Below are positions 35,776 through 41,594 of a stretch of DNA of 64,000 nt, in pieces. The DNA comes from Methanosarcina sp. GTDB taxonomy: Archaea; Halobacteriota; Methanosarcinia; Methanosarcinales; Methanosarcinaceae. The notes beneath the pieces were generated by a model that was not told the origin of the DNA, made no database searches, and worked only from the letters and a program-made list of their open reading frames with translations. Where the stretch lies: the NCBI RefSeq assembly GCF_028693135.1, contig NZ_JAQUVZ010000010.1, positions 1 through 64,000 on the forward strand, given 5' to 3'. A program made the position numbers and the translations under genes. Within the stretch, counting starts at the first letter, position 1. Each line of letters begins with the position of its first letter.

Positions 35776-37275
35776 ATGGAATTCGCAGTATATGTAAGAA
35801 AAATATTGGGATTTAGTGGCTATTTAAACCCACTACTAAATTCCTTCAGAATGCTTGTACGAAAACATGAATTAGTCTTTTTGTTTACATTATTTTTTAT
35901 TGTTTACAACATAAATTTGAGATCGATACCTAGTGGAGATACCATACCTGCATCTCTTTTGCCATTTTGTGTTTTGGAGCATCATTGTGTGAATTTCGAT
36001 GGTTTCGGAGCATACATTGGAAAAATCAGTGTTCCTTATATGTTTGGACAAATGGATGGTCATTATTTATCTCAATATCCAATAGTTACTCCTTTAATTG
36101 TCACTCCTTTTTATTCAGTGATATATATTATACTAAAATTATTCCAGTGCCCAATAGATATGCTTAACTCAAGTTTTCAATTTATTGTGATTTTGATGGA
36201 AAAATTAAGTGCTTCCGCAATTGCCTCACTTTCTGGAATTTTTGTATATTTGGCTACAAGAGATTTAACTACCAGAAAAATTGGACTCATTTCAGCGTCA
36301 ATCTATGGTTTTGGAACCAACACGTGGACAATAAGTAGTCAGGCCCTCTGGCAGCACGGCATGGTGGAACTTCTTCTTGCAGCTATGATTTACATTACAA
36401 TAAAAAATGAATTCCTGGAAAGTAAATTAAACTATATTTTCCTTGGGCTTTTTTCGGGACTATATATATTTAATAGACCTTCTGATTCTATTCTTGTTTT
36501 ACCGATCATATTATATGTCTTTCTTAAAATGAATAAAAAAAACATAATGTGGTATTTTACCTCAGTACTTATATCAAGTAGCTTTTTTTTGTTTTATAAC
36601 ATCCATTATTTTGGCAGTATTTTAGGGGGCTATTCCTGTTTAACTCCTGCAATGAAATTAAATTGGGAAATTTTTCCTCATTTTGTTGGATTATTGTTTA
36701 GTCCAAATCGCGGATTATTCGTATATACTCCAGTAGTTTTGTTTTCAGTTTTGGGCTATTTAAAGATCAAGAACCTTTCAAATGAAAAACTCAAGTTTAC
36801 CTTTTATGCGTTTGGTTTAGCATGCATACTCGAAGTAATGGTCTATAGTATTTTTTCTAATTGGTGGGCAGGATGGAGCTATGGCCCTCGTTTTTTGATA
36901 GTACTTTTGCCTGTTCTTGCCATATATTTTGGGCTGTATCTGAACGATGCATCCAAAAAAGCAAATAATTATTCTAAGTTGTTAAAATTTGTATTCATTG
37001 GATTACTTATTGTATGGTCACTGTTTGTACAATTCGTTGGAGCATTTTATTATCCTATGGGCAATTGGGATGGAAGTCCAAATGTTGATGAAAATCCTGA
37101 AAAACTCTGGGATTGGAATGATACTCAAATCATGAGAAGTTTTCATGCAGGTCCTTATAATCCACTAATTCTGATAAATCATCATTTTACCATGTTCCTG
37201 ACACAATTCCATAACCCAGTGTCATTTGAATGCGTTTCAATACTTAGGAAGAGGTACACAGGAGACCCTGTATGA
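35776..37275 (+). CDS. Polytopic membrane protein, GT-C-like; C-terminus replaced by IS21 sequence
   Basis: 499 aa with about ten to eleven membrane segments. The N-terminal loop after the first segment contains IPSGDTIPASLLPF, reminiscent of the acidic catalytic loop of PMT-like enzymes, and WWAGWSYGPRFL is a conserved loop of this group. GGAGTTAAAGG precedes ATG 35776. The last 15 or so residues (from about 37229) are read out of frame through an istA fragment, so the natural C-terminus is lost and the protein may or may not work. Confidence 0.65.
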   Translation: MEFAVYVRKILGFSGYLNPLLNSFRMLVRKHELVFLFTLFFIVYNINLRSIPSGDTIPASLLPFCVLEHHCVNFDGFGAYIGKISVPYMFGQMDGHYLSQYPIVTPLIVTPFYSVIYIILKLFQCPIDMLNSSFQFIVILMEKLSASAIASLSGIFVYLATRDLTTRKIGLISASIYGFGTNTWTISSQALWQHGMVELLLAAMIYITIKNEFLESKLNYIFLGLFSGLYIFNRPSDSILVLPIILYVFLKMNKKNIMWYFTSVLISSSFFLFYNIHYFGSILGGYSCLTPAMKLNWEIFPHFVGLLFSPNRGLFVYTPVVLFSVLGYLKIKNLSNEKLKFTFYAFGLACILEVMVYSIFSNWWAGWSYGPRFLIVLLPVLAIYFGLYLNDASKKANNYSKLLKFVFIGLLIVWSLFVQFVGAFYYPMGNWDGSPNVDENPEKLWDWNDTQIMRSFHAGPYNPLILINHHFTMFLTQFHNPVSFECVSILRKRYTGDPV

Positions 37276-37375
37276 CAACATGAAACAGGTTGTAATCAGG
37301 AAAGCACTGAAATCATCAGATTCTGAATGGAACTCACAATTTGAGGATTTCTTCAAGCATTATGGATTCAGTTGA
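37229..37375 (+). pseudogene. IS21-type IstA transposase fragment
   Basis: Reading NAFQYLGRGTQETLYDNMKQ, VVIRKALKSSDSEWNSQFED and FFKHYGFS: this is the DDE-domain block around YDNMK of IS21-family IstA. The fragment overlaps the end of the upstream gene in another frame and stops at 37375, where intron-like sequence begins on the other strand. Confidence 0.75.
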
Positions 37376-37377
37376 AT

Positions 37378-37474
37378 AGGAAGGAAAGATTACTCCATTC
37401 CTTCCCTTCCAGGAACGAATCGTGCTACTTTCACCGCAGTTCACTCGCGCGTTTTACAACCCATTCTGGCGGCT
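37378..37474 (-). ncRNA. Group II intron 3'-end fragment (domains V and VI)
   Basis: The minus strand of 37413-37446 is 34 nt long and starts GAGTGAACTGCGGTGAAAGT; it matches the domain V pattern GAG-N5-TGCGGTGAAAGT-N-GCACG-N4-GTTC. Next to it 37380-37410 forms a hairpin GGAAGG...CCTTCC as expected for domain VI. No intron-encoded protein or 5' end is present. The catalytic triad position reads AGT instead of AGC, so it is probably dead. Confidence 0.7.
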
Positions 37475-37600
37475 TTAAGTGAAAAATTGCTGGTTCTTTT
37501 GAGGAATAACCCTTCCAACAAAGAGCATATTCACGTAATCATATTCAAATCTGGATAAGAGTTTTTCATTCGGACTTTTATCGTAAATATTAAGATCCAA
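37475..37600 (-). pseudogene. GT4 glycosyltransferase fragment
   Basis: Minus-strand frame reads LDLNIYDKSPNEKLLSRFEYDYVNMLFVGRVIPQKNQ, the start of the C-terminal half of a GT4 enzyme (VNxLFVGRVxPxKNQ). It is closed by a TGA upstream and TAA downstream. A remnant of a further glycosyltransferase lost from the island. Confidence 0.65.
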
Positions 37601-37607
37601 TCAAAAT

Positions 37608-37888
37608 TGCGCTGGCGCACCCACAGCAAGCTAGCGGGGTATTCGACTGAAAAAAATACAAGAGAAACGTAGTATTTTTGCATCAACTTTAATTTATATC
37701 TTAGTTAACCGAATCAGGCCATTTTCTTTTTTGAGTGTTGTATGCTGGTTATCTTATACTTTATGTACATTTATGCAATGAATATTAACCATTTGCAGCT
37801 GATATAAGAGGTTATTTTGCAAGAAATTGCGAACTTATTAATATATTTACAAAAGTACAAATAGTAGAAAACCGTTGTATATTTTAGA
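37608..37888. other. Spacer with an imperfect hairpin, no gene
   Basis: GCGCACCCACAGCAAGCTAGCGGGGTATTC at 37615-37645 includes an imperfect palindrome (CCCACAGC and GCGGGG arms) that may be an IS end. The remainder to 37888 is AT-rich without coding sequence. Confidence 0.35.
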
Positions 37889-38319
37889 GAAAACGCTACA
37901 AAAATGATTCAATGATCATTTACGAAGTCACACCTTACCCTGAAAAACATTTTCGCTTTTAGGTGATGGCTGGTATGGTCTTGAAGAATGGAATGGTGTT
38001 CCATCAAGATGGATGCAGATTCTACCATTTATATTTACTCAGATGAAGATAGTTCAGTGAAACTAAGTTTAGATGCTCTAAGTTTTCAAAGTTCAAGGAC
38101 GCTGGAAATCTTCGATGGGGACTACTTGATTTCGAAATAAATAATCCTCCAACCAAGTTTATTTCCACAGAAACGACTGTAAACTTACACCACGGTGGAA
38201 ATATCTTTCGGCCCCACGTTCAAGAGAGATGTGAAATACCAGGTGAAATTCAAGGCTCAGGGGACTCAGACAATAGAAATATAAGGATCTCAATTCAAAA
38301 CATTAAAATTACAAAATAA
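37889..38319 (+). pseudogene. C-terminal remnant of a GT-C-like gene, paralogue of the gene at 29269
   Basis: With several frameshifts the plus strand reads YKNDSMIIYEV, then GDGWYGLEEWNGVPSRWM, DSTIYIYSDEDSSVKLSLDA and a tail ending ISIQNIKITK. This parallels YEKDSLIVYRV, DNWYNREEWDGVPTRWI and AIQNLTIS at the C-terminus of the protein coded at 29269-31464. At least two frameshifts and a stop break it. Confidence 0.75.
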
Positions 38320-38345
38320 TATAAGATGTTTTTTTGGTGATATGT

Positions 38346-39227
38346 GTGAAATTTAGCATAAGTAAAGTAATATTATATTCAATAATCTTACTTGTCATGA
38401 TAATTTTCTCAGGTATTGCCGGAGCAATAGAGGAGAACAGAACTGAAAAGTCTTCTCTACCTGACAGTGTTTTGGTTTATGACAACGCAGGAACCTGGGC
38501 AATCTGGAACTCCACCACTAATTCGGCTGATATTGTTGGATTCGGCTGGAATGGGACAAAACCTTTAGTTGGAGATTGGGATGGAGATGATATCAAGGAA
38601 ATTGGAATATACAACACTGATGGAAATAACTTTATCCTGAAAACAGATTCCGATTTTGAGGTTATAGGGCTGGGCTGGGCCGGCGTCACACCAGTGGTTG
38701 GAGACTGGAACGGTGATGGAAAAGATGACGTCGGGGTCTACAACAACGCTGGCACCTGGGCGCTATGGAACACTGAAACAAACTCAGCAGAGATAGTAGG
38801 TTTTGGTTGGCAAGGAGTTCAACCAGTTGTTGGGGACTGGGACGGAGATAGTATAACTGAAATCGGAGTCTATCACTCTGACGAAAAAAGCTTCCTCCTG
38901 AGAACAGATTCCGGATTTGATGTGATAGGGTTAGGATATCCGGGAAGTATTCCCCTTGTTGGAGACTGGAACAGCGATGGAAAGGAAGAAGTCGGAATAT
39001 ATTTAAACGGTATCTGGGCACTCTGGAACTCCAATACCAACTCTACATACAATGATGGATATGGCTGGAATGGAACCATGCCTATTGTGGGGGACTGGGA
39101 CGCTGATGGCACAACAGAAACCGGAATTTATAATCCACATGGGTACAACTTTCTCCTGAGGGTGGATACAGACTTTGAGACTATAGGGCTCGGCTGGTAT
39201 GGGGTTACACCACTCTCCAGCTATTGA
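38346..39227 (+). CDS. Secreted FG-GAP/VCBS-like repeat protein (beta-propeller type)
   Basis: 293 aa from GTG 38346 (GGTGAT 5 nt upstream; frames from 38334 possible). An N-terminal signal peptide or anchor (VILYSIILLVMIIFSGIAGA) is followed by about six alternating repeats of the kind VGDWDGDxxxEIGIY...W or F, IGLGWxGVTPVVGDWNGDGKDDVGVYNNAGTWALW. The D-x-D-x-D(G) loops suggest calcium binding. Probably a cell-surface protein. It shares its repeats with the next gene at 39969. Function beyond binding or adhesion is not known. Confidence 0.8.
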   Translation: MKFSISKVILYSIILLVMIIFSGIAGAIEENRTEKSSLPDSVLVYDNAGTWAIWNSTTNSADIVGFGWNGTKPLVGDWDGDDIKEIGIYNTDGNNFILKTDSDFEVIGLGWAGVTPVVGDWNGDGKDDVGVYNNAGTWALWNTETNSAEIVGFGWQGVQPVVGDWDGDSITEIGVYHSDEKSFLLRTDSGFDVIGLGYPGSIPLVGDWNSDGKEEVGIYLNGIWALWNSNTNSTYNDGYGWNGTMPIVGDWDADGTTETGIYNPHGYNFLLRVDTDFETIGLGWYGVTPLSSY

Positions 39228-39968: not shown

Positions 39969-41594
39969 ATGTGGCAAGTGAAAAGAACTGAAATAGTTTT
40001 GTTTGCAGCAGTTTTTGCAATTTACCTGGCAATTGCAGGCAGTGCATCAGCTGCAACAATTTATGTAGACGATGACGGATCCGCAGATTATGCAACAATA
40101 CAGGCTGCGGTAAATTATGCAAAAGAAGGAGATACGATAAGCGTAAAATCCGGGACTTATTCTGGAGACATTACAATTACAGTGCCAAATCTGGTTCTTG
40201 TATCAAGTAGTCCATATAATGCCATAATCAAAGCTAAAGGGAATGCTTTCAATTTGGATGCTAATTATATTACAATAAAGAACTTCAATATAATAGGTCC
40301 GGGTGGCTCGGGTTCCTCAGGCATTATAGACAATTCTTTCTTCTGTACTATTCAGAATAATAAAATTTCTAATTTTAATACAGGCATTGGAGTTTACACG
40401 GGGAACGAGGGGGGAGGCGGCTCAATCATTAATAATGATATTTCTGATTGCGATGACGGAATTTTACTCTGGTCCAGTAATGATAATAAAATAAGTGGGA
40501 ATCGACTTTCAAACTGCAAAACAGGATTAGATATGGTAGATTCTTATGATACTATAATTTATAATAATAATTTTAACAACACCCTAAATGTACAATTTAT
40601 GGATATAAGTACCTGGAATACTACGAAAACACCTGGAAAAAACATTGTTGGAGGCCCTTATATTGGTGGTAATTACTGGGCAACTCCAAAGGGTGACGGT
40701 TTTTCCCAGACACATTCCGATAGCAATGGAGATGGTATCTGTGAAGAACCATATTACATGAATGAGGTAAACATTGACTATATGCCCTTGTTCAAATCAG
40801 TTATAGGTTCAAAAGCTCCTGAAGAAGTTGGTGTTTATAACAATGCAGGAACCTGGGCACTCTGGAACACCGCTACAAAATCGGCAGATATTGTTGGTTT
40901 TGGGTGGGCAGGGACAAAACCGATAGTGGGAGACTGGGAAGGAGACGGGGGAATAGAAGTTGGTATATATAACAACGCGGGAAACAATTTTATGCTGCAA
41001 ACAGATGCCGGTCTCAAGGTAATCGGGCTTGGCTGGTCTGGTGTTACACCAGTTGTGGGAGACTGGAACGGAGATGGAAAAGATGACGTAGGGGTCTACA
41101 ACAACGCCGGAACCTGGGCACTCTGGAACACCGCTACAAACTCGGTAGATATAGTCGGATTCGGATGGGCAGGGTCAAAACCGATAGTGGGAGACTGGGA
41201 CGGAGACGGAGTAACAGAAGTTGGTATATATAACAACGCGGGAAACAATTTTATGCTGCAAACAGATGCCGGCCTCAAGGAAATCGGACTCGGATGGGAG
41301 GGCGTTACACCAGTTGTGGGAGACTGGAACGGAGATGGAAAAGATGACGTAGGGGTCTACAACAACGCCGGAACCTGGGCACTCTGGAACACCGCTACAA
41401 ACTCGGTAGATATAGTCGGATTCGGATGGGCTGGAACTCAGCCTGTTGTAGGAGACTGGGATGGAGATGGTGTAACAGAAGTTGGGATTTACAACACAGG
41501 AGGAAATAATTTCCTGCTACAGAAAGATTCCGGCTCTGGTTCTGTAGGACTTGGATGGACAGGGGTGACTCCATGTGTTGGGTGTTGGGGATAA
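39969..41594 (+). CDS. Secreted protein: signal peptide, parallel beta-helix, FG-GAP-like repeats
   Basis: 541 aa. Signal peptide 1-29 (VLFAAVFAIYLAIAGSASA). Residues about 30-265 have the NosD/pectate-lyase-like beta-helix pattern (ATIYVDDDGSADYATIQAAV, NNKISNFNTGI, NNDISDCDDGI, SGNRLSNCKTGL, NYW), ending with a Ca-type loop DSNGDGICEEPY. Residues about 275-541 carry three FG-GAP-like double repeats (VGDWNGDGKDDVGVYNNAGT). No membrane anchor at the C-terminus. Likely a surface glycan-binding or structural protein; an enzyme activity of the beta-helix is not shown. Confidence 0.85.
   Translation: MWQVKRTEIVLFAAVFAIYLAIAGSASAATIYVDDDGSADYATIQAAVNYAKEGDTISVKSGTYSGDITITVPNLVLVSSSPYNAIIKAKGNAFNLDANYITIKNFNIIGPGGSGSSGIIDNSFFCTIQNNKISNFNTGIGVYTGNEGGGGSIINNDISDCDDGILLWSSNDNKISGNRLSNCKTGLDMVDSYDTIIYNNNFNNTLNVQFMDISTWNTTKTPGKNIVGGPYIGGNYWATPKGDGFSQTHSDSNGDGICEEPYYMNEVNIDYMPLFKSVIGSKAPEEVGVYNNAGTWALWNTATKSADIVGFGWAGTKPIVGDWEGDGGIEVGIYNNAGNNFMLQTDAGLKVIGLGWSGVTPVVGDWNGDGKDDVGVYNNAGTWALWNTATNSVDIVGFGWAGSKPIVGDWDGDGVTEVGIYNNAGNNFMLQTDAGLKEIGLGWEGVTPVVGDWNGDGKDDVGVYNNAGTWALWNTATNSVDIVGFGWAGTQPVVGDWDGDGVTEVGIYNTGGNNFLLQKDSGSGSVGLGWTGVTPCVGCWG
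40830..41590 (+). repeat. 261-bp near-identical tandem repeats inside the secreted protein gene
   Basis: The units (87 codons) recur with a period of 261 bp: for example GACTGGAACGGAGATGGAAA starts at 41061 and at 41322. Long stretches of the second and third units are identical at DNA level, indicating recent duplication or gene conversion. Confidence 0.9.

Follow-up and report, generated by a model that had tools for sequence, protein, structure and literature searches.

How did about 1.1 kb of a methanogen genome (37229-38319) come to hold pieces of unrelated genes and genetic elements side by side, and does any of it still act? The piece lies in the window, the whole stretch of 64,000 nucleotides analysed (G000:C59:1-64000), which belongs to a genome of 4.2 Mb in 89 contigs, here called the own genome (G000); as it encodes methyl-coenzyme M reductase alpha (E 2e-145), its owner is a methanogen. 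The original prediction saw here a nested graveyard of four remnants abutting each other: an istA block, a group II intron end, a GT4 fragment and a frameshifted GT-C C-terminus. Separate istA, intron, GT4 and C-terminal remnants are there; a relic of an IS200-type element was missed, not all the pieces abut, and the name GT-C is unconfirmed. The locus (Table) is very probably a non-functional composite that mobile elements and deletions have left behind in a region with glycan genes, and none of its pieces is expected to act now.

Table. Features of the composite and of its immediate surroundings, by position in the window.
Feature	Positions	Strand	Support
Membrane-protein ORF, 499 aa, called GT-C in the original prediction	35776..37275	+	71-73% identity, 3/29 other genomes
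Internal fragment of IS21-family istA gene	37199..37370	+	85.5% DNA identity to G003
Group II intron, 3' terminal 117 nt (domain V, domain VI and the sequence just before)	37371..37487	-	RF00029; 79-90% DNA identity
Group II domain V, 34 nt	37413..37446	-	three changes vs G012 and G019 sequences
Internal fragment of GT4 glycosyltransferase gene	37488..~37598	-	83-88% DNA identity, 7/29 other genomes
Decayed left-end/right-end fusion of IS200-type element, PATE-like	37599..37657	+	34 other own-genome matches
A+T-rich stretch	37658..37887		no DNA match (29 genomes), no Rfam match (E <= 5)
C-terminal remnant (~143 codons, frameshifted) of ~740-aa protein	~37888..38316	+	protein matches, 9/29 genomes

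The limits of the pieces were set by comparison with a genus sample of 30 genomes, 29 besides the own one. A DNA search with 37220-37600 found 51 places in 20 of the 30 (own genome included), counts that are lower bounds, the best 23 candidates having been scored in the larger genomes. With local re-alignment at 29 loci it resolves three blocks: 37199-37370, 37371-37487 and 37488-37605. Matches stop at 37370/37371 and at 37487/37488, coming from either side, and the 50 outside the own locus extend at most 3 nt across a join. The first block is present in 11 of the 29 other genomes (G001, G003, G007, G009, G010, G011, G016, G017, G022, G023 and G027), the second in four (G001, G005, G012 and G019, the last with an additional match of 22 nt only) and the third in seven (G004, G005, G014, G015, G025, G027 and G029).

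An assembly in 89 contigs could in principle have created such joins falsely, through misassembly of repeated mobile DNA. In the own genome, 3' ends of group II introns with high scores (C18, C62, C77, C82, C86 and C89) and istA starts (C12, C55 and C68) often stand at contig ends, so repeats of this kind do interrupt the assembly. Misassembly of the joins in the window is nevertheless highly improbable: none of the best 40 of 66 own-genome candidates gave a second DNA match (E <= 0.01) to the istA, intron or GT4 piece, and pieces that look single-copy would not mislead an assembler.

The istA fragment corresponds to residues about 188-243 (~57 codons) of a 440-aa relative, with its reading frame from 37220. 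DNA homology covers 37199-37370 in the comparison with G003 and about 37216-37356 at most other istA loci (29 loci compared). Translated on the plus strand from 37220 it reads CHLNAFQYLGRGTQETLYDNMKQVVIRKALKSSDSEWNSQFEDFFKHYGF, and over 50 aa this shares 84% of its residues with G003 IstA; at four of five distinct places protein identity is 80-84% over 50 aa, and at the fifth 81% over 37 aa (L022 and L064, being the same place, are counted once). Together with the DNA identity, this bears out the IstA block read on that strand in the original prediction. Pfam gave nothing useful on a 48-aa piece, with one match at E 0.12, and the IS21 family was assigned via full-length relatives, in which an rve domain stands beside an IstB_IS21 gene; the istA gene of G003, of 440 codons, has that domain and adjoins such a gene. 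Set against this family (IstA/IstB), the window piece is close to an rve-domain IstA but is an internal fragment only: it has neither IS ends nor istB, and the blocks adjoining it are an upstream membrane-protein gene and the intron.

The second block is the 3' end of a group II intron. A covariance-model search, the check proposed with the original prediction, matched RF00029 over the full model (positions 1-77) at 37448-37371 on the minus strand with 27.7 bits (E = 0.005), short of the gathering score of 40, and across the 4.2-Mb genome this is the weakest of the eight matches listed (E = 0.0036), the other seven being above the cut-off. Because the score is below the Rfam gathering cut-off, the call rests on homology to other introns: identity over 98-119 nt to places in four of the 29 genomes (G001, G005, G012 and G019) is as high as 79-90%, which makes a chance origin untenable. 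All four relatives align as intron ends, and the two that were scanned are above the RF00029 cut-off. One of these, in G012, scores 50.3 bits with a D1-D4 match upstream (34.6 bits vs a cut-off of 34), and its copy is ~830 nt long, from GTGCG to CAAC, with limits set by eye. Domain V and domain VI were thus correctly recognized on the minus strand.

Group II introns begin with GUGYG. A 5' GTGCG end and the upstream domains are seen in the G012 copy; in the window neither domains I-III nor a 5' GUGYG end was found, and intron homology ends where the GT4 fragment starts. The predicted fold of domain V, at -5.6 kcal/mol, is weaker than in G012 (-16.2), G019 (-16.2) and G001 (-14.1) and not much weaker than in G005 (only -7.9). 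With its 5' part missing, the window copy would be unable to splice or to move by itself. Excerpts on group II introns in methanogenic archaea (PMC4424553, PMC8919778) include a survey's mention of a Methanosarcina mazei intron split by a transposase. The window intron resembles the introns of those excerpts in having domains V and VI, in its 3' end, in its truncation and in lying within mobile DNA, and differs in keeping the last 117 nt only and in its three changes within domain V. Elsewhere in the genus, G019 has three group II domain V-VI units in 1.2 kb (L033 395-470, 1303-1379 and 1521-1597), possibly nested introns.

At 37370/37371 the 3' terminal base of the intron adjoins the last base of GGATTCA in istA. 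Intron copies in G012, G019 and G005, delimited by BLAST alone, have CCTATTC[A/G]AC as their end, and beyond it their sequences diverge; the G001 copy shows this end as well, although the motif used to read it presupposes as much, and its BLAST match likewise begins at 37371. In G003 istA is uninterrupted at the same codon, GGATTCA being followed directly by TTCCTCGC. Because copies elsewhere end there and the G003 gene reads through, the junction marks the place within istA where the intron itself ends on its 3' side. As read from the sequence, then, this is a group II intron inserted into istA and antisense to it, the relation that the original prediction had suggested, and no uninterrupted IS21 sequence runs across the junction in the window. 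In no relative was a complete intron found at this codon of istA. An exact-pattern scan for the istA-intron join gave a single match, in a Poribacteria record, which by arithmetic is about what chance provides; the own genome was perhaps left out of that scan.

Group II introns spread by mechanisms such as retrohoming and target-primed reverse transcription, and this one may have arrived by ordinary retrohoming or retrotransposition. Lying antisense it would not be spliceable from the istA message, and that copy of istA would have been disabled. The fragment could also be a 5'-truncated retrotransposition product, for which reverse transcription stopped early and no full copy was later deleted. 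This is unlikely: target-primed reverse transcription stopping early does predict the presence of only the 3' 117 nt, but the other half of istA would be expected upstream of an intron truncated in that way, and the internal piece of GT4 found there calls for at least one further rearrangement. If reverse transcription did stop early, no 5' part was ever inserted, and all that is fixed is that IS21 preceded the intron. On the preferred reading, with IS21 arriving before the intron and the intron losing its 5' part later, the order of the pieces is in part the record of insertions and deletions for which it had been taken.

The other end of the istA fragment meets the upstream membrane-protein ORF, which is native to about 37186-37198, the join being placed within about 15 nt only, and then continues in an out-of-frame tail from istA DNA to a stop at 37275. 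Amino acids 1-470 have homologous ORFs in three other genomes that extend 15, 17 and 31 residues past the residue 470 point. No Pfam family is above the cut-off for the ORF itself, and its relative in G004 is just below that of PMT_2 (25.7 vs 26.1 bits). Since 499 codons are open, and 470 residues are 71-73% identical to the homologues, the tail taken from istA might serve the protein as a new, functional C-terminus, with part of the composite under selection. This is unlikely, as the tail comes from translating istA DNA in another frame and is absent from the three homologues found.

Beyond the intron is the GT4 fragment, on the minus strand as predicted and confirmed by its DNA identity to seven genomes. 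In each of the seven loci read, the matching stretch lies within an open frame of 355 codons, and the one frame scanned matches Pfam Glycos_transf_1 (PF00534; E 7e-29). Upstream of domain V the intron is joined to the inside of this gene, and the IS200-type relic lies beside the GT4 scrap. The istA, intron and GT4 pieces therefore do abut; the last scrap does not, being set apart by the IS200-type relic and by ~230 nt of A+T-rich DNA.

That last scrap is, as was predicted, a frameshifted C-terminus, with at least three changes of frame. A 66-aa piece of it has matches in nine of the 29 other genomes (E <= 0.001; 31-39% identity), and the open frames of these relatives are of 744-794 codons in eight genomes and 541 in G025. 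The name GT-C found no confirmation here, neither of two relatives read at full length (741 and 736 aa) having a Pfam family at E <= 0.01. Nor is the scrap the C-terminal end that the upstream membrane protein lacks: comparison of that ORF with one full-length relative of the scrap gave no significant similarity (best E 1.3). Derivation of the GT4 fragment, the scrap and the upstream ORF from one collapsed operon is also unlikely: their counterparts in G004 lie far apart on a single contig, at 3.82, 2.20 and 3.92 Mb respectively, keeping in mind that the gene at 2.20 Mb is only a 37% relative.

What was overlooked between GT4 and the A+T-rich stretch is the fused ends of an IS200-type element, one with a Y1 transposase. 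The own genome has 34 further DNA matches to this piece (E <= 0.01), some being two parts of one element. The motif of its right end occurs once in the window and in 23 of the 30 genomes, up to 41 times in a genome (41 in G008, 39 in G027); a reversed control pattern gave 0. The spacing of the ends was compared at 19 other own-genome loci. In a short form of ~60 bp they are 22 nt apart (five loci, with two more that align as such a unit), and in a long form of ~220 bp there are 177-181 nt between the end motifs (nine loci, with two more by eye). At a single locus (C36, about 193-825) the form is of ~630 bp with 591 nt between the end motifs. This last has both element ends and, on the opposite strand of its interior, an open gene for a 148-aa Y1_Tnp protein (E 2.6e-35), the stop counted in the interior preceding the start codon of that gene. 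In G008, five of six matches to a relative of the C36 transposase sit ~50 nt from a right-end motif.

This recalls the palindrome-associated transposable elements (PATEs) of Haloquadratum walsbyi, presented in excerpts of their description as derived from IS605-type transposons and as arising by fused ends with loss of the transposase core (PMC3119063). Here too the ends recur in an element with a Y1 transposase gene of its own, that of C36; relative to the elements of those excerpts, the window copy is in another genus and its hairpin stem is damaged. Recombination between the similar hairpins of both element ends may have removed the transposase gene and left the relic. It is improbable, though worth keeping in mind, that there is a putative genus-wide non-autonomous IS200-type family moving by transposase in trans and helping to drive such joins or, failing that, that the membrane protein with the istA tail is a working new protein.

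The remaining joins would have been made by deletions or other rearrangements, and the sequence does not tell in which order the GT4 join, the IS200-type relic and the last scrap came about. Altogether the composite is real and precisely mapped, and looks like ordinary genome decay with known kinds of element throughout, so that no new class of system is opened by it. It does follow, to the base at two joins, the erosion of a glycan-gene region by nested mobile elements in a methanogen, and through it a short repeat abundant in the genus is linked with an IS200-type transposase. Among the papers listed in literature searches, no title or start of an abstract gave an account of this composite or of the IS200-type repeat, and plasmid records had no match to 37220-38340.

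Three further Rfam matches, to two snoRNA families and to IS605-orfB-I, were taken as chance, the last (38119-38166) scoring 15.9 bits vs a gathering score of 94.2. Set aside likewise were tblastn matches of low identity, at 21-25% for an FG-GAP ORF and at 22-24% for the terminal part of the upstream ORF, along with some further short matches. Close by in the window (38334-39227 and 39969-41594) are two proteins of VGDWDGDG-type repeats (FG-GAP_3), the second of which also has a NosD domain.
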